DNA of 32,987 nucleotides from Candidatus Auribacterota bacterium (GTDB taxonomy: Bacteria > Auribacterota > Tritonobacteria > UBA1439), in NCBI GenBank assembly GCA_026392035.1, contig JAPLCX010000036.1, forward strand, positions 1-32,987, in the 5' to 3' direction. Positions 618 to 32,987 of the stretch are shown here, in pieces (the first letter of the stretch is position 1; each line of letters begins with the position of its first letter). Position numbers and translations under genes: made by a program. Below the pieces are notes generated by a model that made no database searches, was not told the origin of the DNA, and worked only from the letters and a program-made list of their open reading frames with translations.

Positions 618-2288
618 TTAGAGATTCTCTGCATCAGTATGCGGTATGAAGAGCGAGGCGATGAACTCGTCCATGTAGCGCGGGTGGGTGCTCAGGTCGA
701 GGTAGGTGATTCTGTCGGCGAGCGCGCTGATATCAACCCTTTTCTCTTCTGACAGCAGGATCAGGTTCGCGCCCCAGAGGGAGCCGTTCCCGATGTACTC
801 GAACCGGTCGAGCGGGAGGTTGGGGAGCATGCCGATGGCAACGGCGTTCGATGCGTTGATCGCTTCTCCGAGCCGGCCGGCGATCACGACGCGCTCGATT
901 GAAGATGCCGCAAGCTCAACGCTCCTGAGCATCGTGAGGATCGCAGCCTGTATGGCCGCCTTGGTGCGGAGGAGCTTTTTGAAATCAACGCCGGTCAGGG
1001 AGATCTCTCTGGGCGCGCCGCCCTCGCCAGTCCTCCTCACGATATAGGCGGGATGCCCCTGCCGCTCCTCCAGGCGCGGACAGCCTCGATCCCTGTTCAG
1101 AGTGCACTTCCTGTCGAGGATGCCATGCCGGAAAAGCTCGGCCATCAGATCGATCATTCCCGAGCCGCAGAGGCCGCGCGCGGGAGCGCCGGTGATGGTC
1201 TTAAGCACGGGGGATGCGTCCAGGTGCTTGATTTCGACAGCCTCCACGGCGCCGGGGGCGGCCATCATGCCGCTGCTGATACCCACACCCTCCAGCGCGG
1301 GTCCGGTGGAACAGGCGCAGCCCATCATCCACTCGCGGTTTCCCAGAATGATCTCGCCGTTCGTCCCTGCGTCAATGAAAAGGATTACCTCACCCGATTC
1401 GTGCATACGGCAGGCGAGCACGCCCGCGAGCACGTCACCACCGACGTAACTCCCGATACCCGGCGCGAACATGAGAGGGGCGCGGGGGTTGACCGTGAGC
1501 CGCGCCTCGCCCGCGGGGATCACGGGGTAGCGGGTGCGCACGCGGGTGGTTGAGTCGAGCCTGATCGGCGAGGGATCCAGGCCGAGGAACAGGTGGATCA
1601 TGGTCGTGTTGCCCGCCATGGCCGCACTGGAAACCTCATCCGGTCGCGCCCCGGAATGTTCCATGAGGCGCGCGATGACTCCGTTGATCGTTTCGAGGGC
1701 GAGGCCGCGCAGCCGATCGAGCCCGCCCCGGCGCTGGGCGTAGACGATGCGGCTGATGATGTCCGCGCCACAGGAGAGTTGCCGGTTGTAGGCGGCGGCG
1801 CGCGCGCGGTAGTTGCCCGTTTCGAGGTCAACGAGTTCAGCGACCACGGTGGTCGTGCCGAGATCGAGGGCAAGACCGAGAAGGGGGTGGCCGGCCATGC
1901 GCTTCTCGGGCGGCGGAGACAGGGCGAGACCGCTGAGGGCGTGCGCCCGCTTCCGGTCATCTTCAGTGAGCAGTACCGCGGCGAAGTCGAGATCCGCAGA
2001 AGGAAGAAGCGATTCCTCCGGCACGAACACCACGCAATCGCCTGTCACGCGCGCGCCACAGGCGAGCCGGTAACCACGCCGTTCCTGCTCGGGAGTGATC
2101 GAGATGTGAGGAGTGGGAGCGCAGTCACCCGCCTCGATTTTTACGAGGCACTGGCCGCATGTCCCCTGACCACCGCACTCAGCTTTTATCGGGATGCCGA
2201 GGAGGAGGGCAGCGTCGTAAAGTGCTCCGCCCGCTTTAATGTCAACTTCTTTTCCCGAAGGGAGAAACTTGACCCTGTGCAATTTCAT
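618..2288 (-). CDS. RACo-type reductive activator of corrinoid protein (2Fe-2S + ASKHA ATPase)
   Basis: This 556-residue protein has an N-terminal plant-type 2Fe-2S ferredoxin domain with ligands C38, C44, C47 and C77. After a linker, an actin-like ATPase domain of the DUF4445 type carries DLGTTT (142-147), MAGNTTM (224-230) and FIDAGTNGEI (304-313). This is the architecture of RACo, which uses ATP to drive an electron uphill and return the cob(II)alamin of the corrinoid iron-sulfur protein to cob(I)alamin in the cytoplasm. It is the last gene of the minus-strand acs operon, directly after acsC, so AcsCD is its likely substrate. A MITE-like element ends three bases before the ATG. The bases just upstream of the start come from that element and show no Shine-Dalgarno motif. 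Confidence 0.92.
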   Translation of the reverse strand: MKLHRVKFLPSGKEVDIKAGGALYDAALLLGIPIKAECGGQGTCGQCLVKIEAGDCAPTPHISITPEQERRGYRLACGARVTGDCVVFVPEESLLPSADLDFAAVLLTEDDRKRAHALSGLALSPPPEKRMAGHPLLGLALDLGTTTVVAELVDLETGNYRARAAAYNRQLSCGADIISRIVYAQRRGGLDRLRGLALETINGVIARLMEHSGARPDEVSSAAMAGNTTMIHLFLGLDPSPIRLDSTTRVRTRYPVIPAGEARLTVNPRAPLMFAPGIGSYVGGDVLAGVLACRMHESGEVILFIDAGTNGEIILGNREWMMGCACSTGPALEGVGISSGMMAAPGAVEAVEIKHLDASPVLKTITGAPARGLCGSGMIDLMAELFRHGILDRKCTLNRDRGCPRLEERQGHPAYIVRRTGEGGAPREISLTGVDFKKLLRTKAAIQAAILTMLRSVELAASSIERVVIAGRLGEAINASNAVAIGMLPNLPLDRFEYIGNGSLWGANLILLSEEKRVDISALADRITYLDLSTHPRYMDEFIASLFIPHTDAENL

Positions 2289-2291
2289 AAT

Positions 2292-2459
2292 AAGGGGACA
2301 GGCTACTTTATCAGCCGCAACCCTTTTGTTGCTAGTAAGTTATAGCCAGATCTGTCGACATAATGGAACGACACGACTTAACTGCAAATTATCTGCAAGC
2401 ACCGTATGGAACACTTTCCATGGGAAGGCGATAGGTGTCATAAAGTAGCCTGTCCCCTT
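2292..2459. repeat. MITE-like element with 20-bp perfect terminal inverted repeats
   Basis: AAGGGGACAGGCTACTTTAT at 2292-2311 returns as its exact reverse complement at 2440-2459, enclosing about 128 bp with no gene. The core contains a small hairpin (TGGAA at 2407-2411, TTCCA at 2416-2420). The size, perfect ends and lack of a gene fit a non-autonomous miniature element. The end sequence resembles sites associated with IS200-like/REP-associated (Y1) transposases, but that link is from memory. The element fills the gap between acsC and the corrinoid activator gene. It encodes the last residues and stop of acsC and sits directly before the next start codon. Confidence 0.75.
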
Positions 2460-3799
2460 TTCTTACACACGTCCTTCATGTAGGCGGGGATATCGGCGGA
2501 TTCCTGCGGCCCCACCATGACATTCCAGCCAGGGAGCTTGTCCTCCAGATCGCCGCTGATCATCGCCACGTATCCGGGGATGATGATGCGCCTGTGGGGA
2601 ACGGATGTAGTAAGCCCGTGGGCTGTCACTGCTTTCGCGATCACCTCCGCGTTGAACTTCCCTGCGGCCCAGGCGGTGAGGACCGACTGCCCCTCCGCGT
2701 CGGTGACGAGGAGGCGTGACGGGATCTCCGAGGCCTCGATCTCGGTTGACACCATGAAGTAGGTGAGGGAAAAGTTTGTGGTGACGAGGAGCGGGGAATC
2801 CTCGGCGGCTTCCCCGATCCGGTAGATTCCCGGATCGACCTGGAGCGGTTTCTGCGGATCGGTGTAGATATTTTGTCTCAGGGTCAGGAGCGGCAGGTAC
2901 TCCCACAGGGCCGGTTCCTCAATAACGATCACCGAGGCGTATTTGCATATTCCTCCCGCTGCGGCCACGGCGCCCTCGTAACCGCTGCCGCGGGCCGACA
3001 TGATGAGCGGAAAGCCCGTTCCGGGGAACGACCGGGAGAGCGCGCGCCGGCGCAGGAGGGTGAAGTCCCTGAGCCTGGTCGCGGCGCCGTCGCTCATTGG
3101 CGCGAGAAGTATGTCCTCAACGCCCGACTGTTCAACCCGGCAGGCGAGCGCGGTGAGCTCGTCGATTCCTCCGGGCCCTTCTACGACGAGAGGGACAGAG
3201 AATCTTTTCGCGAGCGCGGCCACCTCATCAGCGTGTGCGATTTCCGCCCCCCAGAGGAGAGGGCGTGAGCTGCCGGCGACGTCCAGCCCCGCGCTGATAC
3301 AGAGGGCGTTTCTGGAAATCAGCACGAGCGGCAGCGGGCACTTCTCCTGAACCGTCCTGATGGTCTCCGCGAACCTCTCCGGCGCTCCGCTCGTTTCCTT
3401 CACCGCGATGAGGTCGAGTGCCAGGCGCTCCCCCGCGCGCTCAACTAAAAACGAGCAGGCGAGCTGTAATCGCGAGAGCAGTTCATCGCGTTCCATGGCA
3501 TCATCCACCTGGGCGGCGAGCGCGGTCTTGTGGAAGAAGGTCTTCTCGTGCCGGAACATCACAAGTTCCTCACCGATGCTGACCGCGCGATCGCCGGTCC
3601 CGATGCTCACGAGCCTGATGGGCGGGGCGGCTGCGGCGCCGAGCTTTTCGCGCGCCTCGTCTGAGACATAGGGACAGGCATCCAGCTTGGCCTGTTTCGC
3701 CGCGAGCTTCATGGCGAAGGCGAGGCATGTCTGGGAGCCGCACTCCTTGCAATTCTTGTTCGGCAGCAGCTTAAAAATCTGTAGTCCAGTCAGTTTCAT
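2438..3799 (-). CDS. acsC: Corrinoid iron-sulfur protein, large (gamma) subunit
   Basis: The 453-residue protein begins with a 4Fe-4S domain (C17, C20, C25, C42), followed by a TIM-barrel region and a C-terminal cobamide-binding domain. It matches AcsC/CdhE. With AcsD it forms the CFeSP, which carries a methyl group on cobalt from methyl-tetrahydrofolate to acetyl-CoA synthase. The 4Fe-4S cluster passes the reactivating electron to cobalt. It lies between acsD and the RACo activator in one operon. The last seven residues (KRGQATL) and the TGA stop are encoded by the terminal repeat of the adjacent MITE-like element, so the native C-terminus has been replaced. I see no good Shine-Dalgarno before the ATG at 3799. 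Confidence 0.92.
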   Translation of the reverse strand: MKLTGLQIFKLLPNKNCKECGSQTCLAFAMKLAAKQAKLDACPYVSDEAREKLGAAAAPPIRLVSIGTGDRAVSIGEELVMFRHEKTFFHKTALAAQVDDAMERDELLSRLQLACSFLVERAGERLALDLIAVKETSGAPERFAETIRTVQEKCPLPLVLISRNALCISAGLDVAGSSRPLLWGAEIAHADEVAALAKRFSVPLVVEGPGGIDELTALACRVEQSGVEDILLAPMSDGAATRLRDFTLLRRRALSRSFPGTGFPLIMSARGSGYEGAVAAAGGICKYASVIVIEEPALWEYLPLLTLRQNIYTDPQKPLQVDPGIYRIGEAAEDSPLLVTTNFSLTYFMVSTEIEASEIPSRLLVTDAEGQSVLTAWAAGKFNAEVIAKAVTAHGLTTSVPHRRIIIPGYVAMISGDLEDKLPGWNVMVGPQESADIPAYMKDVCKKRGQATL

Positions 3800-3810
3800 A
3801 ATGTATTTTC

Positions 3811-3952
3811 AGCACGGAGACGCGGAGGACACAGAGATATAGAAAATCTTCATCTCTAAAAGAGCAAGAAGAAAAGAGAACATCAAAAACTCTTTTCTCT
3901 TTTACTCTTTGTAATAACAGAAACTTATTACTCCGTGCCCCCGTGGTTCACG
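3811..3952. repeat. Nested imperfect inverted repeat in the acsD-acsC spacer
   Basis: The left arm (3811-3837) is built from CACGGAG/CGCGGAG/CACAGAG words. The right arm (3930-3952) contains ACTCCGTGCCCCCGTGG, roughly its reverse complement. Between them lies a second purine-rich/pyrimidine-rich pair (AAAAGAG-type words near 3858-3880 against CTCTTTT-type words near 3891-3910). The right arm contains the stop codon of acsD. There is no clear T-run typical of an intrinsic terminator. The same architecture with other words recurs in other spacers of this window. Confidence 0.6.
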
Positions 3953-4907
3953 TTTTTACCATCAATTCGTCTATTGTCTTTTCGACGGCGGCGATCGCAT
4001 CCGGGTGGCGCATGACGAGTATATCCGCGCCCGCATAGAGCAGGGATGCCGCGGTCGCGATTTCCCACAATATGCCGCGCTTTTTCCTGTCTCCCCAGAG
4101 CGGCTCTTTCTCTTCCGGTACCTTCACCTCCTTCACTTTCCACACCTCCTGGCCGACGAAGCAGATGAACGGCATCTGCATCATCGCGTCACCGTCGAGG
4201 GCCTGGAGGCGGATGCGCTCCATGACCGAGTACGTGTACTCCATCCCATATCCCAGGCCGCCGGTGAGCGGGTCGATGACAATCCGGTCCGGGGGGAAGT
4301 GGAGGTCGGAAATGAGGATGTTGAGCTGCTTGCAGAGGTTCACGTCGATCGGCGTTTCAGCAATCACGGCGTGGCCGTACGCCATCGCGCTCGCCACAGG
4401 GGTCTTGTAGTGTTCCTCAACCGCAGATGCGAGGAGGCAGCGCTCACCCTGCGCGGCTTCGGCGCAGGCGCTGAGGACCTGGTTCTGTTTCTCTCCCGGC
4501 CCGGCGCCCTTGATGATCAGGGGAACATTCACCTCCCTGAGAAGGCGCGTCACCAGCTCCGCTGCTTCGGCGCCGCTCCGGTTCTCCCTGTCGGGGTGCG
4601 TGCCCCGCAGAGTGAGGCAGATGAGCCTGGCACCTCTCCTCTCAACAACAGATCTTGCCCACGCGATCGGCTCATCGAGCACGTCGAGATATGGCTCGGC
4701 GGCTGTATCACACCAGTCGTGGGGCCGTACGTCCGTCACTTCCCATGCGACGATCGGCCTGTTCGGATACGTTCCCTCGAAGTGGTGGAAGGGAAGGCAA
4801 TTCTGTCCGCCGATCTCCAGGGAAAAGGCACGTGTGCCGCCGTCCACCGGGGTGTTGCCGATACGGACAGCATGAATATGGCTCGTGGATTTCTTCTGTA
4901 TCTCCAT
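3948..4907 (-). CDS. acsD: Corrinoid iron-sulfur protein, small (delta) subunit
   Basis: With the start chosen here the protein has 319 residues, close to the usual AcsD length. It has a TIM-barrel fold with DPLTGGLGYGMEYTYS and the closing MRHPDA motif of AcsD/CdhD. It forms the heterodimer with AcsC and caps the cobamide. The frame opens at 4979, but the extra 24 N-terminal residues are translated from a low-complexity repeat and overlap the tail of the broken gene upstream. The ATG at 4907, giving MEIQKKSTS, is therefore preferred. A TATAAT on the minus strand at about 4915-4910 is too close to the start to judge. The stop codon lies in an intergenic inverted repeat. Confidence 0.9.
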   Translation of the reverse strand: MEIQKKSTSHIHAVRIGNTPVDGGTRAFSLEIGGQNCLPFHHFEGTYPNRPIVAWEVTDVRPHDWCDTAAEPYLDVLDEPIAWARSVVERRGARLICLTLRGTHPDRENRSGAEAAELVTRLLREVNVPLIIKGAGPGEKQNQVLSACAEAAQGERCLLASAVEEHYKTPVASAMAYGHAVIAETPIDVNLCKQLNILISDLHFPPDRIVIDPLTGGLGYGMEYTYSVMERIRLQALDGDAMMQMPFICFVGQEVWKVKEVKVPEEKEPLWGDRKKRGILWEIATAASLLYAGADILVMRHPDAIAAVEKTIDELMVKT

Positions 4908-4920
4908 ATAATTATAAGGC

Positions 4921-5362
4921 AAACCCGAAACTCGAAATAAACCCAAAACCACAAACTCAAAATAGAGATCTATTGACATTTTGCAACTATTGAGCCAAAT
5001 ATTTTCATGAGTTCAGTAACTTCTCCGATCAGCACATCTTTATCTTTCAGGTGAATCTTCATGAGGCTCGCTTAACTTGAGCCGGTAGGCAGTTTCCTTT
5101 GCCTCCTTACGTGATATCTTTATTCTCATAACAAAATCCTTTTTACTCAACGAATCTTCAGCTTCTATATAGTTTGCACCGATAGAGCCTGCTGATCGGA
5201 TTAGCTGTGTGGCTATCTCAGTATTTGGAATTGTCTTAGGTAGAGCATTTACATAAGGTACGACTGTCTGTGCGAAACGGCAGGTTCTATCCGATAGGTC
5301 ATAAGGTTTTGTATTTTGGATTTTATCCATTCGGGTTTGTTTAGGGTTTCGAGTTTCGGGTT
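4921..5362. repeat. 17-bp inverted repeats flanking the four-helix-bundle gene
   Basis: AAACCCGAAACTCGAAA at 4921-4937 is the exact reverse complement of TTTCGAGTTTCGGGTTT at 5346-5362. Each side extends into further degenerate AAACC/GGGTTT words. Together they bracket the broken four-helix-bundle gene, and the whole block sits inside the acs operon between acsB and acsD. This may be the flank of a small inserted module or another example of the spacer-type inverted repeat with a gene lodged in its loop. Confidence 0.6.
4970..5330 (-). pseudogene. Four-helix-bundle protein (23S rRNA intervening-sequence/S23 family), frameshifted
   Basis: The first frame (5330 to 5040, 96 codons) gives a protein with DRTCRFAQTVVPYV, IATQLIRSAGSIGANYIEAE and RIKISRKEAKETAYRLKL, the hallmark of the four-helix-bundle proteins often encoded in 23S rRNA intervening sequences. 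It then runs into a short unrelated tail. The expected last helix is present in another frame, reading KDVLIGEVTELMKIFGSIVA and ending at TAG 4970-4972. One frameshift near 5060-5085 thus separates two halves of a normal ~120-residue protein. The break could be real decay or a sequencing or assembly error. The function of the family is not established. The gene interrupts the spacing of the acs operon and is bracketed by inverted repeats. Confidence 0.8.
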
Positions 5363-5369
5363 TAGGATT

Positions 5370-7553
5370 TTACAGCAGCCACTCCATCGCCAGTGCCGGG
5401 TGTTTCACCTTCTTGAGGAAGTCGAGGAGCATTGCCGGGTCGGTGGTGACGGTCTCATCGGCGATTTTCGAGAGGAGGTCCCGTTCACCGATCTCTTCAC
5501 AGCGCCTCCTGAGCTCTTCGCCCAGCTTCCCCTTGATCTCCTTTGTCATCCAGACGATGCGCCTCAATCCCCCCTCAGCCGAGATGAATTTTTTGCTCAG
5601 GAGATAGCGCGTCCCGATGCCGATGAAGCCGGGCGTCTGCTGGCCGCCGCCGACCACACCCGCGAGTTCCGAGAAGCTCATGCCGCACGGAGTCTGTCCC
5701 TTGAATTCCCTGTTCACCACCATGAAGCCGTTGGTATCGGGGAGGATTGCCACAATGCATTCGAAGCAGCCGCAGGACGTCATCGGGTCGTCCATGATCG
5801 AGTAGGCGCTGAAGCTCGCGATCGCGCGGTTCGAGCGCTCGTACACGAACGCGTTGATGTCGGCCCACTTGCCCTTGACCGCATCGAGCACCTTGCCCTT
5901 CTTCACGGGCTGGTTGGCGCCGGTCGGGTTGATCTCGTACGCTGCCTTCCCGTCGAGCCAGTTGTACGCGCCGCAGAGACCGAGGCGCTCGGGGGTGATG
6001 ATGCACACGTGGTTCGGGGCGTACGACTGACAGAGCTGGCATGAGTAGAAGAAATCCACCGCCTCGTCGGTGAGGCCCCTCAGGCGGCGGTCGCGCTCGT
6101 CATATGCCTGCTTCGCGCGCGGCACCCACTCCCGCATGTCTTTTTCCTCCGTGTAGAGCGTGACCTGGACCTTGTCGACGATCGCGGGAAAATCGTTGAT
6201 GAGCTTCGCCCTGAGGAGCTCTCCGAGGTGTGTGATCCGGAAGCCCGCCTTCTTCGCTTCCTTGCTGATCCTCAGCCAGACAACCTCGCGCTGCCCGATG
6301 TGCATGACCCCCATTGCCTGACTCAGGAAATGGTGGATGTGGCGCTCGAGGATGGCCTCAAAATCCTTCTGCATCTTGCGGCCCGCAACCCTCACGACGA
6401 TGCCGAGGGGGAGGGCGCCGCCCTCCTCGACACGGTCAAGGTCGGGGCCGACGAGCTCGATCACGCCGTCGCGCACATCCCCCGCCGGAGCGCTGAACAC
6501 GTACTCGAACGCCTGGCTGTATTTTCCGCCGAACTGGATCGCCATATCTTCCTTGCGGACGCGTTCTCCCTCGAAGGCAGGGCCGTAGCGAACGGGGATG
6601 GGGATTTTCGTGATGCGGACCTTGATCCCGCGCACCTCGATCGCCTTCTCCGCCATCCGGTCGTATGGTATGGAAGCGACGATGAGGTCCTTTTTATCAG
6701 GGCCGAAGGCCAGGATCTCCGGAACCGCGCTGTCGGAGAGTATCGGGAAGCCGAAGTTGAGCGCCCCCGCGGCGATGGCGATTCTGACGTCGTCGAGCGG
6801 GCCGAGGGCGATGACAAACGCGTGCACGCGCGCGCGGTTGTAGTTCAGGATCTCCTCTCCCCCGTTTCCCTCCCTCGGAGTGATGCCGCCGAAGGTCATC
6901 GCCGCGCGTGCGGCGAAACCGAGCGCGTATACCGCCGCAGTGAGGTCCTTGCCGTAGGGGACGAGGAAGGTGTCCCAGTTCATCTGGACGCGATCCTCGG
7001 CGAGCTGTTCGGCGAGGCTCACGCCGTTCGTATCACCGGCCATGACCACGAGGATGTTCCGCTCCTGGAGATCGCGCACCAGGTTGACGGCGATCTCTTT
7101 CGAGGGCGCGGCGCCGACGATCGCAGCGATACCCGGCATGCTGCCATCCACCAACTTCACCCCCTGGCTCCGGAGGAGTGCGTCACTGGTCGGTCCGAGC
7201 CAGATGCCGGTGTGGGGAGGGCCGTCCAGGTGCCGGATCGCCTCGATTGCCTCGGCAGCCATGATCGTCGCGCGTCCCGCAGCCAGCGCCTCGTCGAGCG
7301 TGGGGAGCGCGCCGCCCTCCTCGCGGAGGAGCGCGCGGCATCCGGCGAACGCTTTTTTCAATTGGCCGAGTGTTGTCACTTTAAGGCCCGTGATGGCGTA
7401 GATCACGGGGAGGCAGTAGGCCGTGTCGGGGAAGGAAACCGCATGCGCCTCTCCCTTCCCGGCGAGCGCTTTTTCGAGTATGCCCTCAGCGAGCCCGACC
7501 ACCGTGCGCGCGCCTGAAACCGCTCCGTTAAGGATGATTGAAATATCTTTCAT
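5370..7553 (-). CDS. acsB: Acetyl-CoA synthase, bacterial type (CODH/ACS alpha subunit)
   Basis: The 727-residue protein is full length for bacterial AcsB, including the N-terminal CODH-contacting domain missing from archaeal CdhC. The A-cluster ligands are all visible: C505, C508, C517 and C527 in the CQLCQSY...NHVC...LGLC region, and C594-G-C596 in MTSCGCFEC. They match the Moorella numbering with a shift of one. It condenses a methyl group from CFeSP, CO made by CODH, and CoA into acetyl-CoA. The ATG at 7553 is preceded by GAGGAT on the minus strand. It follows the core MetE gene and precedes acsD. The partner CODH subunit is not in the window, and the probable nickel chaperone lies at 20336-21106. 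Confidence 0.96.
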   Translation of the reverse strand: MKDISIILNGAVSGARTVVGLAEGILEKALAGKGEAHAVSFPDTAYCLPVIYAITGLKVTTLGQLKKAFAGCRALLREEGGALPTLDEALAAGRATIMAAEAIEAIRHLDGPPHTGIWLGPTSDALLRSQGVKLVDGSMPGIAAIVGAAPSKEIAVNLVRDLQERNILVVMAGDTNGVSLAEQLAEDRVQMNWDTFLVPYGKDLTAAVYALGFAARAAMTFGGITPREGNGGEEILNYNRARVHAFVIALGPLDDVRIAIAAGALNFGFPILSDSAVPEILAFGPDKKDLIVASIPYDRMAEKAIEVRGIKVRITKIPIPVRYGPAFEGERVRKEDMAIQFGGKYSQAFEYVFSAPAGDVRDGVIELVGPDLDRVEEGGALPLGIVVRVAGRKMQKDFEAILERHIHHFLSQAMGVMHIGQREVVWLRISKEAKKAGFRITHLGELLRAKLINDFPAIVDKVQVTLYTEEKDMREWVPRAKQAYDERDRRLRGLTDEAVDFFYSCQLCQSYAPNHVCIITPERLGLCGAYNWLDGKAAYEINPTGANQPVKKGKVLDAVKGKWADINAFVYERSNRAIASFSAYSIMDDPMTSCGCFECIVAILPDTNGFMVVNREFKGQTPCGMSFSELAGVVGGGQQTPGFIGIGTRYLLSKKFISAEGGLRRIVWMTKEIKGKLGEELRRRCEEIGERDLLSKIADETVTTDPAMLLDFLKKVKHPALAMEWLL

Positions 7554-7567
7554 GGATCCTCGTTTCT

Positions 7568-7665
7568 AAACCACTGAGTGCATTGAGAACGCCGGACTTA
7601 GTTACATCGCATAGTAATCCAATTGAAAATAACTCCCTATCTCAACTCAATGCCCTCAGTGGTTT
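7568..7665. repeat. Inverted repeat between core metE and acsB (ACCACTGAG words)
   Basis: AAACCACTGAGTGCATTGAG at 7568-7587 pairs with CTCAATGCCCTCAGTGGTTT at 7646-7665, with one mismatch in 20, around a 58-base AT-rich loop. Both flanking genes read leftwards. The T-run needed for a classical terminator is absent. The same ACCACTGAG words recur at 16187-16258. Confidence 0.7.
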
Positions 7666-7677
7666 CGCATAATCAGA

Positions 7678-8724
7678 TTATTTTTCGGTTCCCGGCGGTA
7701 TTTTAATTTGCCCCACAGTCTCAAGTATCTTTTGCGCGAGCTCTTCCGAAAGCGTCCCCGTGCCGCAGCTCGGCGTGAGGAGGCAGCGCTCCCAGATCGC
7801 GTCCACGCCGAGGCCGGTTTTTTCACTCAGGGCGCGGAGGCGCTCGCCGAGTTTGACCGAAAGGCTCTCCACGGTTTCGCTCCGTATCTTCTCCGATGTC
7901 GGCACGAGGCCGAGGGCGAGCATCCGGCCGCACTCGAGAAACTTTTTCAGGGCTTCCGGATAGAGCGTCATGCCCGTGAAGTAGTCGTATGCGTCAAAGT
8001 TTATGATGTCGAGTTCTGTGTGCATGAGGAGCGACCAGTCGGTGTTGCCGCAGCAGTGGATTCCTGCCAGGGCGCCGCATCCATGAATGCTCTGCACCAC
8101 TTCCCCGATGTATGAGAACACCTGGTGTGCGGATAGGCTCACGTATCCGGAGCCGAAGCTCGCGAGGTAGGGCTCATCGAGCCAGATCATCACCCGCGGG
8201 CACACCTTCTTCAGTTCGCGCACCTGCCAGGCGGCTTTCATGGAGATGGACTTGAGCGCCGCGTCCATGAGCTCATCATGGTAGAGGATTGCCTTCTTAT
8301 TCTGGTCGGTGACGGTGAGGCCGAAGCTGATCGGGCCGACAATCTGTCCCTTCACGCAGGCGAGGTTGTTGTGCGCCTTCCCGGAAAGCGCGTCGATCAA
8401 GCGATAGAATCCCGGGGCGTACTCCTCGGTGAGCGCGAAGCGATTGAGGTCGCCCTCGATCACCCCGCCGTAGAATGACTCCATCTCAGCCATGATATTG
8501 CGCCCCGTGTCGAAATAGATCTTTTCTTTTTCACGGTCCACGACGAGGCATGGGAGCCCCTCGCTGTACTGGACGTACATGTTTTCAAGGAACGAGCGGT
8601 TCGGCAGCTGAGGCCAGGCCGGGAGTTCAGGGAATGCCCGCAGCACCGCCCGGACGGCCTCCGAGGGATCCCTGTGGGGAAGGCTCCCCACCGATGTCGC
8701 CCTGCCCAAAGGTATAAATTTCAT
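7678..8724 (-). CDS. Core MetE-like (folate-independent) methionine synthase / UroD-MetE superfamily methyltransferase
   Basis: This 348-residue protein corresponds to the catalytic C-terminal barrel of MetE without the N-terminal folate-binding half. Candidate zinc ligands are H223 and C225 in GIHCCGNTDW and C320 in LTPSCGTGT. Short 'core MetE' proteins methylate homocysteine from a corrinoid protein instead of methyl-folate, and one published family has been proposed to take its methyl group from CFeSP. This gene heads the acs operon, with acsB next, so CFeSP as donor is a reasonable inference. A UroD-like methyltransferase for another thiol is the alternative. An AGGA lies a few bases before the ATG. 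Confidence 0.75.
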   Translation of the reverse strand: MKFIPLGRATSVGSLPHRDPSEAVRAVLRAFPELPAWPQLPNRSFLENMYVQYSEGLPCLVVDREKEKIYFDTGRNIMAEMESFYGGVIEGDLNRFALTEEYAPGFYRLIDALSGKAHNNLACVKGQIVGPISFGLTVTDQNKKAILYHDELMDAALKSISMKAAWQVRELKKVCPRVMIWLDEPYLASFGSGYVSLSAHQVFSYIGEVVQSIHGCGALAGIHCCGNTDWSLLMHTELDIINFDAYDYFTGMTLYPEALKKFLECGRMLALGLVPTSEKIRSETVESLSVKLGERLRALSEKTGLGVDAIWERCLLTPSCGTGTLSEELAQKILETVGQIKIPPGTEK

Positions 8725-9124
8725 AGTATCCTACGCGCACAGTGCTATCACGAGGTCTCGAACCAGCTCTCTCCCTCCTCGGCAGAGAAGAATAGTAATT
8801 ATCCCGCAAAATTTTCCCTCCCGCAATAGATTTCGCCCTCTCGATGAACCCCGCCATGAATCTGGCTCTGCTCCGCTCTCCCGGCCTCAGCTCTGTGGGA
8901 AGCATGATTCAGCTCATGCTGACGCACTGTGAGAAACTTAAAGGCGATGCGGTATGGGTGCGGCATAAGGTGGTGAGGGAGCAATGAGTACAACCTGCTC
9001 TGTGGCGAACATGCTGCTGCGTTAAACCTTAGGCCTTTCACTTTGGGCTGTTTCCAAAATCTGCCTGTATAACTCATCATCGAGATGGTACTATACCAGC
9101 CTATTATCGGGGAGGAACTTGAGC
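8725..9124. promoter_or_regulatory. Divergent intergenic region between the acs operon and glucan phosphorylase
   Basis: This 400-bp gap separates two divergently read transcription units and must hold the promoters of both. GGAGGA at 9111-9116 is the Shine-Dalgarno for the phosphorylase start at 9125. A weak -10 candidate, TATAAC, lies near 9069-9074. I looked for cobalamin and SAM riboswitch core motifs on both strands and did not find them. Short open frames on the minus strand (8627-8905, 8799-9080) show no recognisable family. Confidence 0.4.
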
Positions 9125-11683
9125 ATGAGAAAGATTCTGAGATACACGGTGGTGCCTTTTCTGCCTGAGAGGCTGAACGCGCTGCTCGATATCGCGTACA
9201 ATCTCTGGTGGAGCTGGAACCCGGATGCGATAGAGCTTTTCCGGAGCCTCGATCCCGCCGTCTGGGAGAGCACCAGCCACAATCCCGTGAAGGTGCTGGG
9301 AATCCTCAGCACCGACGATATCAACCGCCTCCTCAAAAATGACGCATTCCTCGCCCGGATGGACAGGGTCGCTGTGGAGTTGAACACCTACATGAAACAC
9401 GGCACCTGGTACCAGAAGACGCACCGCGATCATCTGGGGAGCCACATTGCGTACCTCTCCGCTGAATTTGGCGTCCATGAGTGCCTTCCCTTTTACTCCG
9501 GCGGCCTCGGCGTGCTCGGGGGAGACTACTTAAAATCCGCGAGCGAGCTCGGCGTGCCGCTCATCGGCGTCGGCCTCGCCTATCGCTTCGGCTACTTTCG
9601 CCAGTACCTGAACCGCGACGGCTGGCAGCAGGAAACCTACCCCGAAAATGACTTCTATAATATGCCCATGCAGATCGAGGAAAACGCGCATGGCAAGCCC
9701 GTGGTGGTTGATATCTCTTTCCCTGACAGAACGGTGCACGTGCAAATATGGCGGGTTCAGGTGGGCAGACGGCCGCTCTATCTCCTGGACACCAATCTTG
9801 AGCAAAACTCAAATGAGGACAGGAATATCACCTCGCACCTCTACGGTGGCGGCCTCGAGATGAGGATCACGCAGGAGGTCGTCCTGGGCATCGGCGGCAT
9901 ACGGGCGCTCGACGCGCTGGGCTATCCGCCGACGATCACGCACATGAATGAGGGGCATTCGGCGTTCCAGGCGCTCGAGAGGACCCACCAGCTCATGAAG
10001 AAGCACAAGCTCTCGTTCAATGAGGCGAGGGGGCTCGTGACGAGCACCAGCGTGTTCACCACGCACACCGCCGTCCCCGCGGGGATAGATCGTTTTGATC
10101 CGGGGCTGGCGGCGAAATACCTCTCCGGCTACTGCAAGAAGCTCAATGTTTCGATCGAGACGATCCTCGACCTCGGCAGGGAGAGGCCAGGGGACGCGGG
10201 GGAGCCTTTCTCCATGGCGGTGCTCGCCTGCCGGTTCGCCTCACACATCAACGGCGTAAGCAAGCTGCACGGCGAGGTCTCCCGCGAAATGTGGCAGGGG
10301 CTCTGGCCGGAGGTGCCCCTGAGCGAAGTGCCGATCGGATACGTGAAGAATGGCATCCACGTCCCCACGTGGATCTCGGATGAGATGGTGCGCATCTACG
10401 ACCGCTACCTGGGAACGAGCTGGCATTATGAGCCCGAAGACCGTAGCATCTGGGAGAGGTTCGAGAAGATCCCCGACGCGGAACTGTGGGGGAGCCACCA
10501 GCGTCTTAAAGAGCGGCTCGTGGGGTATGCAAGGGCAAAGCTCCAGGAACAGCTCAAGAACAGGGGCGCCCACAGCTCGCGTGTGGTGGAGGCGGGCGAG
10601 GCGCTCGATCCCACGGCGCTCACCATCGGGTTCGCGAGGCGATTTGCCACCTACAAGCGGGCGACGCTCCTCCTCAAGGATCCCGAAAGGCTCGCTAAGA
10701 TCGTAAGCATGCCGGGGAAACCGGTTCAGTTCATCTTCGGCGGCAAGGCCCACCCGGCCGACGAGGGCGGGAAGAAACTCATCAAGGAGATCGCCCACCT
10801 CTCGGAGCAGGAGCCGTTCAGGAACAAGATCATCTTCCTCGAAGACTACGACATGGGCGGCGCGCGCGTGCTGGTGCAGGGCGTGGATGTCTGGCTCAAT
10901 ACCCCGCGGAGGCCCATGGAGGCGAGCGGCACGAGCGGGATGAAGGTGGTGCCGAACGGCGGCCTGACCGTGAGCACGCTCGACGGATGGTGGCCGGAGG
11001 GGTACAACGGGGAGAATGGGTGGGCAATCGGGAGCGGCGAGGAGTACGATGACGAAGAGTACCAGGACCACGTGGAGAGCCTCGCCCTGTATGAACTCCT
11101 TGAAAAAGAGGTCATTCCACTCTATTACGACAGGGGGAAGGACGGATTGCCCCGCGAGTGGATCGCGATGATGAAGCATTCCATCTGCACCCTCTGCCCG
11201 GTGTTCAACACGAACCGCGTGGTGGGTGACTACATCGAGACGGTGTATCTCCCCTCGCTCGCCCACTGGAACTGGATTACGGCGAATGACATGGCTGAAG
11301 CGAAGCACCTCGCACGGTGGAAAGACACGATCGAGGATATCTGGGACGACATCTCCATCAAGGACGTGAAGGTTTCGGGCGTATCGAAGCTGCGCGTGGG
11401 GGCTGAATTGCCGGTGGATGTCCAGGTGGAACTCGGGAGGGTCGATCCGAAGGATGTGCGCGTGGAGTTCTTCTACGGCCCGGTCAACGCGGACGGCGAA
11501 ATTATCGGCGGCAAGTCAACACCGCTCACACACAAGAAACTCGAGAAGAACCACGCACACACCTACGTCGGTTCCATACTTTCAGAATCCAGCGGCCAGT
11601 TCGGCTTCTCGGTGAGGATCCTGCCGAATCATGAGGCGCTCAAGCAGCCGCTTGAAATGGGGCTGATCCACTGGTGGGAGTAA
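9125..11683 (+). CDS. Alpha-glucan phosphorylase (GT35, glycogen phosphorylase-like)
   Basis: The 852-residue cytoplasmic protein opens with the DUF3417-type segment NLWWSWNPDAIELF and continues with LSAEFGVHECLPFYSGGLGVL. It carries the pyridoxal-phosphate site EASGTSGMKVVPNGG, with the lysine at residue 607. This is the alpha-glucan phosphorylase family that releases glucose-1-phosphate from glycogen or maltodextrin. The C-terminal ~100 residues form the beta-rich tail of the family. A TTG at 9119 is in frame, but GGAGGA at 9111-9116 is spaced correctly only for the ATG at 9125. The gene stands alone and faces rmd. A repeat follows six... bases after the stop region and separates the two convergent genes. 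Confidence 0.95.
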   Translation: MRKILRYTVVPFLPERLNALLDIAYNLWWSWNPDAIELFRSLDPAVWESTSHNPVKVLGILSTDDINRLLKNDAFLARMDRVAVELNTYMKHGTWYQKTHRDHLGSHIAYLSAEFGVHECLPFYSGGLGVLGGDYLKSASELGVPLIGVGLAYRFGYFRQYLNRDGWQQETYPENDFYNMPMQIEENAHGKPVVVDISFPDRTVHVQIWRVQVGRRPLYLLDTNLEQNSNEDRNITSHLYGGGLEMRITQEVVLGIGGIRALDALGYPPTITHMNEGHSAFQALERTHQLMKKHKLSFNEARGLVTSTSVFTTHTAVPAGIDRFDPGLAAKYLSGYCKKLNVSIETILDLGRERPGDAGEPFSMAVLACRFASHINGVSKLHGEVSREMWQGLWPEVPLSEVPIGYVKNGIHVPTWISDEMVRIYDRYLGTSWHYEPEDRSIWERFEKIPDAELWGSHQRLKERLVGYARAKLQEQLKNRGAHSSRVVEAGEALDPTALTIGFARRFATYKRATLLLKDPERLAKIVSMPGKPVQFIFGGKAHPADEGGKKLIKEIAHLSEQEPFRNKIIFLEDYDMGGARVLVQGVDVWLNTPRRPMEASGTSGMKVVPNGGLTVSTLDGWWPEGYNGENGWAIGSGEEYDDEEYQDHVESLALYELLEKEVIPLYYDRGKDGLPREWIAMMKHSICTLCPVFNTNRVVGDYIETVYLPSLAHWNWITANDMAEAKHLARWKDTIEDIWDDISIKDVKVSGVSKLRVGAELPVDVQVELGRVDPKDVRVEFFYGPVNADGEIIGGKSTPLTHKKLEKNHAHTYVGSILSESSGQFGFSVRILPNHEALKQPLEMGLIHWWE

Positions 11684-14137: not shown

Positions 14138-14257
14138 AAATGTTAAAATGGCACCCCGTAACTGAGGCAGTACATGAAATGAGCGTGGCGCCATTGAAAA
14201 ATGGATTAACCCGCCACCCGCGCTATGGTATTATACTTTTTTAATAGGGGTGTGCAT

Positions 14258-15439
14258 ATGAATGAGCGGTGCGGCTCGGTAGGCATTGTAAAAACCAAAT
14301 ACCTGACGTTCGCCGAGCCGCCGCACGAGCTCGTGCTCGAGTGCGGAGAGAAACTGGGGCCGGTGACGCTCGCCTATGAAACCTACGGCCAGCTCGACAG
14401 GCAAAAAGCGAACGCCATCCTCATCATGCACGCGCTCTCGGGCGATGCGCACGCCGCGGGTCGCCACGCGGAGCATGACAGCCGCCCCGGCTGGTGGGAT
14501 ATCATGATCGGCCCCGGGAAGGCGTTCGACACTGATAGGTACTTTGTCATCTGCGCGAACTGCATCGGCGGGTGCATGGGATCAACGGGCCCCTCATCGC
14601 TCAATCCCCGGACGGGCAAACCCTACGCCATGGAATTCCCGCTCATCACGATCGCCGATATGGTGAATGCACAGAAGTGGCTCATCGACTCGCTGGGGAT
14701 CGAGAAGCTGCTCGCGGTGGCGGGGGGGTCGATGGGGGGGATGCAGGTGCTCGAGTGGGCGATCGAATTCCCTGAGCGGATCCGCTCGGCGATACCCATT
14801 GCAACGACGAGCCACCTCTCGCCGCAGGGAATCGCATTCAACGAGGTGGGGCGCCAGGCGATCATGTCCGACCCGCACTGGAATCGCGGCAACTACTACG
14901 AGGGTCCCCCCCCCAACAGGGGACTCGCGCTCGCCCGCATGATCGGCCACATCACCTACCTGAGCGATGAGTCGATGCACCTGAAATTTGGCAGGAAGCT
15001 CCAGGATAGAAAGGGGCTGAGCTACGACTTCCTCACTGACTTCCAGGTTGAGGGCTACCTGCATTACCAGGGCGATGTGTTCACGCAGCGTTTTGATGCG
15101 AATTCGTACCTCTACATTACCAAGGCGATCGATTATTTTGACCTCGCGGAGAAGGGGGAGGGGTCGCTCGTCAGGGCATGCGCGCGCGCGAGGGCGGCCT
15201 TCCTCATTATCGCGTTCTCTTCGGACTGGCTCTACCCACCCTATCAGAACAAGGAAATCGCCGATGCGCTCCGTGTGAACAACGTGGAGGCGAGTTTCTG
15301 CATTCTCGATTCGAGCTATGGGCATGACGCGTTTCTCCTGGAGTCGGAGAAGCAGACGCATCTCATCTCACACTTCCTGAGACACATCTACGAGGAGCAC
15401 GTGTGCGGGGTCCATGAGCGCGGGGGAGGTGCATCGTGA
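14258..15439 (+). CDS. metX: Homoserine O-acetyltransferase
   Basis: The 393-residue alpha/beta hydrolase has the MetX motifs [28 protein letters not shown] and GGSMGGMQ. The catalytic triad is nucleophile S158, D323 (SSDWLYPP) and H356 (SYGHDAF). It activates homoserine to O-acetylhomoserine (O-succinyl in some relatives) for direct sulfhydrylation to homocysteine. An in-frame start at 14225 would add 11 residues from the promoter region. The ATG at 14258, with AGGGG seven bases upstream, is preferred. metW overlaps the stop, so the two are translationally coupled. Its product homocysteine would feed the core MetE at 7678-8724. Confidence 0.95.
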
Positions 15440-16059
15440 GTCCGGAGATGAGCGCGCTCCGGCTGAGGCCGGACCTGATGAGGATTTATGAGATCATCCA
15501 ACCGGGCAGCCGCGTGCTCGACCTCGGAGCGGGGAGCGGCGATTTGCTCAAGGCGCTGGAGAGGCACAAGGGAGTTACGATCCGCGGCGTGGAGATCTCC
15601 GCGGAGGGTATCATGGAGTGCATTGCCAAAGGGGTCCCCGTCTACCAGAGTAATCTCGATGAGGGGCTCGCCGACTACGGGGCGCAGTCGTTTGATTACG
15701 TGATCCTCGCGCAGACGCTCCAGCAGGTGCACAAACCGAAGCTGATTCTTCAGGAGATTGTCCGGGTGGGGAAGATAGGCGTGGTGAGCATCCCCAATTT
15801 TGGCCACTGGCACATCCGGTTCCAGCTCCTGTTGAGAGGGACGATGCCGAAGACGACGTACATTCCCTATAACTGGTACGAAACGCCCAATATCCACCTG
15901 CTGAGCATCAGTGATTTCAGGGATCTCTGCGCAGGGCTCGGAATCCGCATACTGAACGAGTGGCCGGTGAGCTTCAAAGAGGGGCCGCTGACTTCTCTCA
16001 TGGCGCGGTGGCCGAATCTACTCGCCCCGCTGGGGATCTTTGAGATCAGCCGGAAGTAA
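15436..16059 (+). CDS. metW: MetW, methionine biosynthesis methyltransferase-like protein
   Basis: The 207-residue class I methyltransferase-fold protein has [12 protein letters not shown] (SAM motif I), [17 protein letters not shown], and the typical MetW segment [16 protein letters not shown] with [12 protein letters not shown]. MetW accompanies MetX in many bacteria and is needed for full acetyltransferase activity. Its own reaction is uncertain. The GTG start at 15436 overlaps the metX TGA by four bases (GTGA), which indicates coupling in an operon. Confidence 0.93.
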
Positions 16060-20335: not shown

Positions 20336-21106
20336 ATGAGAAAAATCGTGGCGATAGGGAGGGGTGGGGTAGGCAAGACATGTTTCATCGCCGGCATGGC
20401 GCGCGTCCTCATGGATCAGGCGCCGCTGCTCTTGATAGATGCCGATCCCGATCAGAGCCTCGCCGAGATGGTCGGCCTGGATATGGAGCGGGAGGGGATA
20501 AAGACAATTTCAGACCTCCTCTTCGATATCAGGTCTGGGAGCATTGAGGAGAAGCTGAATGCCTCCAGCCTGGCCGAGAAGGTGGACTATCTCCTGAGTC
20601 AGCGAGGCTTGTACGAGGGAGCGCGCTTTGATTTCTTCTCACTCGGCACCAAGTGGACGGAGGGATGCTACTGCCAGCCGAATAACATACTGAAGGGATT
20701 GATCGCGAGGATCGAGAAGAATTACCGCTACATCCTGATGGATTCTCCTGCGGGGCTCGAGCATTTGAATCGGAGAATCACGTCTGCGGTTGATGACATA
20801 TTCGCGCTCATCGGTCCCTCGAAGAAGGCGTTCGACAGCGCGCACAGGGCGAAGAGGGTGATCGAGGAGATCAACATCAGCTACCGGAACTTTTACCTGG
20901 TCGCGGGATATGATTTCCCCGCGGACCGCCTGAAGGCGCTCGAGGGTGAGCGCTCCTCCAGGTATGCGGGCAGATTGGAGCGCGACGCAGATGTCGCCAG
21001 GTTGTGCCTGGAGGGGCAATCGCTCCTCACACTGGGGGATGACTCGCCCTTCCTGAATTCCATACGCGAGATCATCTGCGCGGCTGGCTACCGCACGGGT
21101 GGCTGA
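20336..21106 (+). CDS. CooC/AcsF-like nickel-insertion ATPase (MinD/ParA family)
   Basis: The 256-residue P-loop protein begins MRKIVAIGRGGVGKTCF, with Walker A at 8-15, and shows LLLIDADPDQSLAEM plus the paired cysteines C111 and C113 in GCYCQPNN. That CxC is the nickel-binding hallmark of CooC/CooC-like maturation ATPases, which load nickel into CODH or acetyl-CoA synthase. The client is presumably AcsB at 5370-7553 or a CODH elsewhere. The deviant Walker A normally has a signature lysine before GGVGKT (KGGVGKT). Here it is R9, while the second lysine K14 is kept. The 3' end overlaps the convergent next gene by 19 bases. Confidence 0.85.
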   Translation: MRKIVAIGRGGVGKTCFIAGMARVLMDQAPLLLIDADPDQSLAEMVGLDMEREGIKTISDLLFDIRSGSIEEKLNASSLAEKVDYLLSQRGLYEGARFDFFSLGTKWTEGCYCQPNNILKGLIARIEKNYRYILMDSPAGLEHLNRRITSAVDDIFALIGPSKKAFDSAHRAKRVIEEINISYRNFYLVAGYDFPADRLKALEGERSSRYAGRLERDADVARLCLEGQSLLTLGDDSPFLNSIREIICAAGYRTGG

Positions 21107-22178: not shown

Positions 22179-24308
22179 ATGCCGACGCCCACGCCGACCC
22201 CGACACCCGTCATAGTATATTCGGCATCGGAGGATTTCAGTTCCACGCAGGGATACCGGCAATGGTACTACCAGAAGTACCAGGGAGAGGAATACAGCGA
22301 TCTGGTGTGGAATGAGGCGGACGGGCGCTGGCAAACGGCTATATCGGGGTGGGCTCCGCCGGCGATATGGGGTAGTGGGAGTCATCCATCTTCTACAGCG
22401 GAGGCCGCACGGAAGTGGGTGGCGCCCGTCTGGGGAAAGTTAACGATCGCGGTGAATGCGAGGAAGGCAGATGTGGGAGGAGATGGGGTTGTGGTGAGGA
22501 TCATCAAGAACGGCGCCACGCTCTGGCAGAATACGATCGCCGGCGATGATACTACCGGTTTCCATTTCCTCTTGAGCGATGTGCCGGTCAATAAATATGA
22601 CGCGATATATTTCCGGGTTGCGAACAACGGAAACGATCTATATGACTCGACCTATTTCGATCCGACGATAACCTACACTTCGGTTGATTCTGATAACGAC
22701 GGGCTGAGCGACACCGAGGAAATATACACATATCACACGGATTATCTCAATGCCGACACGGATGGCGACGGTCTGAAGGATGGCGAGGAAGTGAGGGTTT
22801 ATAATACGGATCCTCTGGATGGCGATACTGACAATGACGGCTATGGTGACGGGTATGAGGCGAATCTCGGGAGGGATCCGCTCGATCCGGATTCTCACCC
22901 CGGTGAAACCAGCCTGTTGGTGATCAATGAGATTCTCTATGATTATCCCGGTGCGGATGATGGGCATGAATTTGTGGAGTTGTATAACAATCAGGACGCC
23001 GCGGTTGATCTGTCGGGATACAAGATTCAGGCCTCGGTTGCTGGGCAGTTCCATACCAGCGCGGTGATCCCCGCCGGCAGAACAATTTCTCCCCATTCCT
23101 ACTTTCTCATCGGCGAGTCAGAGGTACGGGACGTCAATGGGAATCTCTCCGATCTCGTCGTGACTCTCGAATTGCAGAACGGCGATGACAACGACCCGGA
23201 TGACCACACAGACACCGGGCTGAGCGACACGGACGGCGTGAGGCTGGTCAGGCCTGATAGATATGTGTTGGATACAGTACTCTATGACAACCCCAATACC
23301 TCTCTTTATGGGGATGACAGCATCCCCGGTCAGACGTATGAGCTCAATCCGGATGTGAATCCCGGTCAGAGCTTGAGCAGAAAATCAGCCGGTCTTGATA
23401 CCAATAGAGCTACAGACTTCGAGGTGCTCAATACGCCCAGTCCGACGGGTTCGATATCGCCTGATACGGATAATGACGGATTGACCAATGTAGAGGAGAG
23501 TTATTATGGCACAAGCCCGACTGATCCCGACAGCGATGATGACGGGTACGTTGACGGGAGCGAGGTTGGAACCGGGACCGATCCTCTCAATGCCAGTGAC
23601 TTCCCCAAGATAGTGATCAATGAAGTTTACTATGATCCTGCCGGTGCGGACGATGTGCTGAAGCAGGAGTTCATAGAGTTATTCAATCCTGGGGATAACG
23701 CTGTTGATATAAGCGCGCTCAGGATCGAGCATGGGGGAACCTCATTTGGGTATGGGCATGCGGACCTCCCGCAGGGGGCGGTGATCCCTGCCCGCTCATA
23801 CTTTTTGATCGGTGAAGCCAATGTCCAAAGTGTATTTGGAGTGGCGCCGGATCTGGTTGTATCCCTACAGATGCAGAACGGAGACCAGAACGATCCTGCA
23901 GTTCCGTACTTTGGAAAAACCAGCCCGACAGACGGCGTGAGGCTGGTTGGCTATGGTGGAAAATTATTGGATACGGTGCTTTATGACGAACCTAACACAA
24001 ACAATCTCCCCGGTGACGCCAACAATCCAGCCGGCACAGATGAGATTTGCAGTGATGTCCAGCCGGGCCACAGTCTAAGCCGCGTGGTTCCAGGGGCGGA
24101 TACCAATAATAAGGTGGATTGGGTGGAACTCGGCGCGCCTGGTCCCCAGAATTCCACAGCGCCATAACTCAGTGTAACCTATCCGAATGGGGGAGAGACA
24201 TTGACAAGGGTGTCAGCAGTGATGGTCAGGTGGGAGACGAGGGGGCCTGTTGGAGCAACTGTCAATGGGGCTCCTCAGAAGGGGAGTGTCTATACCTTGC
24301 GGCACAGG
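22179..24308 (+). pseudogene. Lamin-tail-domain, calcium-repeat surface protein, truncated at both ends
   Basis: The open frame to TAA 24165-24167 gives 662 residues. It opens with a PTPTPTPTP linker and a jelly-roll-like region (20-165). Three TSP3-type calcium repeats follow (DSDNDGLSDTEE, DTDGDGLKDGEE, DTDNDGYGDG; 170-240), then a lamin-tail domain (about 246-400), two more calcium repeats (430-475), and a second lamin-tail domain (480-640). Such modules belong to large secreted proteins, yet there is no signal peptide or Shine-Dalgarno and the frame is closed by TAA at 22152. Past the 24165 stop the same frame continues for 47 codons with LSVTYPNGGETL, the start of a Kre9/Knh1-like 'PNGGE' domain, then stops. 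It is most likely the middle piece of a longer decayed gene. Confidence 0.75.
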
Positions 24309-32552: not shown

Positions 32553-32987
32553 ATAAATAGTTGCACTGATTGGGGCATAATGATAACCTTCCTGCATGAA
32601 CATTACATATTCGTGGGAAGTGTCGGACGCGCTCTGGGAAAAAGCTGAGCCATTGATTCCGCGGCGGAAGCGAGAGAAGGGGCGGAAATATAAAAGGCGT
32701 CCGGGAGGAGGACGCAAGCCGCTGGATTCGCGGAAGATATTTGCGGGGATCGTGTATGTATTGCGCACGGGATGCCAGTGGAAGGCGTTACCCAAAGAGC
32801 GGTTTGGTAGCGCAAGCTCAGTGCACAAATACTTCTTGGAATGGAAGAAGCAGGGGGTTTTCGTTCGGCTGTGGCGCAAAGGACTGGCGGAATACGATGA
32901 AATGGAGGGCATAGCCTGGGCTTGGCAAAGCATAGACGGAGGCATGGTCAAAGCGCCTCTGGCGAAAGAAGCCGTCGGGCCAAACCC
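32539..32987 (+). mobile_element. IS5-family insertion sequence, left part
   Basis: The left end is inferred at about 32539, where homology to the epimerase ceases (GAGCTTATCCGTAAATAA). The preceding TTA may be part of a target duplication. The right end is beyond the window, so the terminal repeats cannot be compared. Confidence 0.6.
32596..32987 (+). CDS. IS5-family transposase, N-terminal part (runs off the window)
   Basis: The open frame of 130 codons reads SDALWEKAEPLIPRRKREKG, PGGGRKPLDSRKIFAGIVYV, LRTGCQWKALPKERFG and VHKYFLEWKKQGVF, then reaches AWQSIDGGMVKAP. The first block is the DUF4096 helix-turn-helix region of IS5/IS427-like transposases. SIDGG holds the first catalytic aspartate of the DDE domain. 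The remaining DDE residues lie outside. It sits 57 bp inside the inferred left end of the element. Confidence 0.88.
   Translation, partial: MNITYSWEVSDALWEKAEPLIPRRKREKGRKYKRRPGGGRKPLDSRKIFAGIVYVLRTGCQWKALPKERFGSASSVHKYFLEWKKQGVFVRLWRKGLAEYDEMEGIAWAWQSIDGGMVKAPLAKEAVGPN

Follow-up and report, generated by a model that had tools for sequence, protein, structure and literature searches.

The window, the whole 32,987-nucleotide stretch analyzed here, is a contig (JAPLCX010000036.1) from a Candidatus Auribacterota genome of 2.8 Mb (96.5% complete), and it carries on its minus strand, in order of transcription, mesB, acsB, a broken insert, acsD, acsC, and the gene for RACo (Table 1). A first-pass annotation had read the same order from the sequence, calling the leading gene core metE, and had placed that gene first in the operon. 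Both observations hold, the second because the next gene upstream of mesB, encoding an alpha-glucan phosphorylase, is divergent; no terminator-like sites were found between the operon genes. AcsB contains six cysteines (C505, C508, C517, C527, C594, and C596) that would serve the A-cluster, as in the Moorella enzyme, and AcsB and CFeSP both look intact as judged from their sequences. The metX and metW genes, of which metX would supply homocysteine, form a separate unit on the opposite strand at 5.5 kb from mesB (earlier given as 6 kb).

Table 1. Features of the window, with positions counted from its first nucleotide.
Feature	Position	Strand	Evidence
Contig ends, within transposase genes (IS1634 and IS5 families)	2-475 and 32596-32985		
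RACo, ATP-dependent reductive activator of CFeSP	618..2288	(-)	PF14574, PF17651, PF00111
acsC, CFeSP large (corrinoid, 4Fe-4S) subunit, 453 aa	2438..3799	(-)	NF003195 537 bits; PF04060, PF03599
acsD, CFeSP small subunit	3948..4979, true start probably 4907	(-)	NF003376 406 bits, above cut-off
Four-helix-bundle / 23S rRNA intervening-sequence protein gene, frameshifted	4920..5363; gene about 5330-4971	(-)	TIGR02436, PF05635
Perfect inverted repeats (17 nt) flanking the insert	4921-4937 and 5347-5363		
acsB, acetyl-CoA synthase, 727 aa	5370..7553	(-)	NF040764 994 bits
mesB, predicted core methionine synthase (MesB family)	7678..8724	(-)	phmmer, ligands, AF2 model
Alpha-glucan phosphorylase, next gene upstream of mesB	9119-11683	divergent	
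metX, homoserine O-acyltransferase (homocysteine supply)	14225..15439	(+)	NF001209 524 bits
metW	15436..16059	(+)	TIGR02081 231 bits
MinD/CooC-like ATPase	20336-21106		
Protein with lamin-tail domains and bacterial TSP3 repeats	22179-24167		
Acyl-CoA/ACP ligase, phosphopantetheine, and acyltransferase fusion, 895 aa	25805-28492		

The insert between acsB and acsD is bounded by inverted repeats, and its frame shifts near 5070-5080, with the C-terminal part running on in another frame. No homolog of the insert was detected in the examined acs regions of relatives (tblastn, E 1e-4); by the same method, a mesB operon of Armatimonadota (L033) proved to carry a homolog at 2060-2299, between its cooC and acsB.

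The mesB product (348 aa) shares with full-length MetE the catalytic barrel, which is the best match of its predicted structure, but lacks the N-terminal folate-binding half, as had been recognized in the first pass, and has Asp in place of Glu as a zinc ligand. The H-x-C motif and late Cys noted earlier correspond to H223, C225, and C320, to which D244 is added as the fourth ligand. By phmmer, the protein scored 256 bits against a protein that we take to be the MesB of D. mccartyi 195. This score exceeds the published cut-off for MesB membership (a phmmer score of 173 bits or more with DET0516; Price 2021), and on sequence criteria the window protein is a member of the MesB family, consistent with the earlier designation as a folate-free methionine synthase. 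A quick tree likewise placed it, together with its Auribacterota relatives, inside the family holding the Dehalococcoides enzymes, with three paralogs outside. The Dehalococcoides reference proteins, from two genomes, are 342 and 343 aa long, and His122, His215, Cys217, Asp236, and Cys312 of the 343-aa protein correspond to the positions published for the characterized core-MetE; H223, C225, D244, and C320 have spacing identical to that of H215, C217, D236, and C312. Among 95 aligned homologs, the His, Cys, and Asp ligands are invariant (95/95), and the last Cys, and with it the full set of four, is present in 93; the two proteins with a gap at this position are paralogs scoring below the MesB cut-off. 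Homocysteine-binding residues are also present (S14, in 92 of 95 homologs; D183, in 94 of 95). The residue aligned with Dehalococcoides His122, the proposed cobalamin ligand of that enzyme (Deobald 2020, PMC7005905), is Q127, and Gln occupies this position in 66 of the 95 homologs.

The AF2 model of MesB (pLDDT 91.7) found its best structural matches in MetE and also matched UROD and a Methanosarcina methyltransferase. Among NCBIfam models, one for methionine synthase matched weakly (30 bits), a Pfam search of the protein gave no family match, and a PDB sequence search with the protein and its profile returned nothing useful. PF01717 matched neither the protein nor anything else in the genome, which was rejected as evidence against a methionine synthase and ascribed to a limit of the model, since the Dehalococcoides enzyme itself matches an NCBIfam methionine synthase model only weakly. 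The UroD family PF01208 did not match the window protein and matched four of 30 homologs weakly (best E 0.0038). MesB-like paralogs from the class holding Dehalococcoides (L157, 3359-4438; L158, 8016-9095; and L159) have an insertion before the last-cysteine region, and those of L157 and L158 score 139-143 bits, below the MesB cut-off.

Searches by tblastn with the window proteins revealed the same gene order, over the stretches compared, in three other genera of the order (L009, L010, and L012), whose proteins are roughly 60-79% identical to those of the window; a further locus (L011) lies on a short contig with mesB alone of this gene set. Individual loci carry additional genes: in L009, cooC, cooS, an iron-sulfur protein gene, and an NADH-type oxidoreductase gene are inserted between mesB and acsB, and in L010 a phosphotransacetylase gene (pta) is directly upstream of mesB. 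The mesB-acs order is thus conserved synteny, not chance. When species genomes were scanned for the best 80 mesB loci, acs genes were nearby in 17 of the 80, from about ten phyla, and mesB stood ahead of them on the same strand in 16 of these 17, counts that depend on locus lengths and on the limit of 80 best matches. Clustering of mesB with Wood-Ljungdahl genes has been described, with methanogens highlighted (Price 2021, PMC7857596), and the partnership of MesB and CFeSP predicted in the literature gains weight from the repeated position of mesB in front of ACS genes, seen in about ten phyla.

Elsewhere, the genome encodes Fhs, MetF, and a MetH (818-829 aa) that combines homocysteine, pterin, and B12 domains; adjoining it is a 218-aa protein that resembles 1J6R, a methionine synthase chain of solved structure, presumably the T. 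maritima activation-domain protein. These genes likely provide a complete folate-dependent methionine route, and mesB, whose type is present in a single copy, would not be the sole methionine synthase. The first-pass annotation had named two findings that would together tell against its reading, a complete MetH or full-length MetE elsewhere in the genome and clustering of the protein among UroD-like enzymes. MetH was indeed found, with MetF and the activation protein, but the clustering was not, and the objection as a whole falls.

No stand-alone AcsE was detected in six genomes of the order searched with AcsE models; the matches were MetH-length proteins and marginal ones, one of them the acsC product of the window. 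A Pterin_bind match considered as AcsE was rejected, the protein being MetH. Prismane proteins were likewise searched in the six genomes and typed in five, the single G005 match being left out: four contain Hcp only, and G003 contains Hcp plus the cooS product of its operon. The sole prismane protein of the window's own genome, a candidate CooS, was rejected as Hcp, and no CO dehydrogenase (CODH) was found there; among the six genomes it was found in one, inside the mesB-acs operon. AcsE and CooS, the pair taken to mark a complete Wood-Ljungdahl pathway, were thus not found in this 96.5% complete genome, and a search of a limited literature collection returned nothing on Auribacterota with that pathway.

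The reading that we consider fairly probable is that MesB takes its methyl group from methyl-CFeSP, itself charged through acetyl-CoA cleavage by AcsB, beside the folate route. The MesB zinc site would activate homocysteine, which would accept the methyl group of methyl-CFeSP (AcsCD) to give methionine, while RACo would rescue oxidized CFeSP. AcsB would cleave acetyl-CoA and pass its methyl group to CFeSP, with CO as by-product, and the AcsB-CFeSP-MesB route would run beside the separate folate route of Fhs, MetF, and MetH. CFeSP is probably the donor to MesB, as suggested by the operon and the published family analysis and supported by the linkage of mesB to ACS/CFeSP genes in many phyla. This idea is already published (Deobald 2020, PMC7005905; Price 2021, PMC7857596), neither study reporting a direct test of CFeSP as donor to a MesB, and the remaining interest lies in a CODH- and AcsE-free setting alongside MetH. 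With AcsE and CODH undetected, nothing visible links CFeSP to folate or CO2; acetyl-CoA cleavage is therefore its only visible methyl source and most likely the one used. The pta gene upstream of mesB in L010 and the lack of a detected MttB-type methyltransferase in the window's own genome also speak for this reading. The first-pass proposal, in which acetyl-CoA and methionine diverge at CFeSP as a branch point, implies charging from folate, but the enzymes for this were not found, and a one-way flow from acetyl-CoA to methionine fits better. Against the AcsB-CFeSP-MesB route, MetH and MetF would make a methionine-only role of MesB redundant, and the His122 of Dehalococcoides is replaced in the window protein. 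It is also possible that a contig with cooS or acsE was lost from the assembly, although the same absence recurs in relatives.

A further objection is that the MetH pterin domain, which scores close to AcsE models, might charge CFeSP. With the AcsE-like model NF005719 it reaches 241-244 bits, and the corresponding domains of two relatives exceed the cut-off of 259. Given that Fhs, MetF, and MetH are present, MesB could then use methyl-CFeSP that had received its methyl group from methyl-THF through an atypical methyltransferase (for example, a MetH-like pterin domain or an unrecognized AcsE), in which case the cluster would form acetyl-CoA and methionine would be a side branch, in line with the first-pass proposal. 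We regard this as unlikely, as the pterin domain is fused, as is typical of MetH, to homocysteine and B12 domains, the activation protein adjoins it, and, without CODH, a source of CO for acetyl-CoA synthesis is undetected. Less likely still, MesB could work with a methylated nutrient or with a corrinoid protein other than CFeSP, and its operon position would then reflect shared corrinoid chemistry only. Some MesB paralogs have been suggested to use other corrinoid proteins (Price 2021), and methionine is already made here by MetH; however, mesB is single copy, its place ahead of the ACS genes is conserved across phyla, and no MttB-type methyltransferase was found in the genome. It is very improbable that the window protein belongs to the UroD/MtaA-like methyltransferases and has a thiol other than homocysteine as its substrate (e.g., coenzyme M-like), for although its model also matches UROD and the Methanosarcina enzyme and no Pfam family matches it, MetE structures match best, S14, D183, and all zinc ligands are kept, and its sequence groups with the D. 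mccartyi core-MetE, which accepts homocysteine and not cysteine, glutathione, or DTT (PMC7005905).

The preferred route from acetyl-CoA through CFeSP to methionine is reminiscent of that proposed for Dehalococcoides, in which AcsB cleaves acetyl-CoA and the methyl group passes by way of CFeSP to MesB (Deobald 2020, PMC7005905). The D. mccartyi enzyme (cbdbA481, DET0516) used methylcobalamin but not methyl-THF-Glu3 in vitro (PMC7005905), and it resembles the window protein (38% identity) in length (342-343 versus 348 aa), in zinc ligands and their spacing, and in the lack of a folate half. The Dehalococcoides genome likewise has acsBCD and lacks AcsE and CODH. In contrast, its mesB gene sits among methionine-salvage genes whereas that of the window heads the acs operon, and the window genome also has MetF and MetH. 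Methanogen mesB-acsC-acsD operons (Price 2021, Fig. 3B) similarly join mesB with both CFeSP subunits, but the window operon is bacterial, includes acsB and RACo, and has mesB first. MesA, MesC, and MesD share the core MetE catalytic barrel but are other families with <30% identity to MesB; MesC has mostly His at the second ligand, and MesD requires MesX and oxygen (PMC7857596).

That CODH and AcsE are apparently missing suggests that Dehalococcoides is not alone in having a route from acetyl-CoA to methionine. More tentatively, and with somewhat less than even confidence, the ACS and CFeSP of this lineage may be detached from carbon fixation and serve one-way breakage of acetyl-CoA for the methionine methyl group, with a complete folate/MetH route alongside; on that view, what is seen in Dehalococcoides would be a recurring design and not an oddity of a reduced genome. 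An operon that joins MesB, AcsB, both CFeSP subunits, and RACo without CODH or AcsE also offers a compact protein set for testing the partnership.

Other genes of the window include one for a MinD/CooC-like ATPase, which lies at a distance of 12 kb from the acs operon, in a genome where CooS was not detected. This ATPase is 30% identical to the CooC-like gene of the L009 mesB operon and may insert nickel into AcsB. Transposase genes lie at both contig ends, and insertion sequences are thus the probable cause of the assembly breaks. Also present are the 895-aa ligase-acyltransferase fusion and the lamin-tail protein, which is probably secreted.
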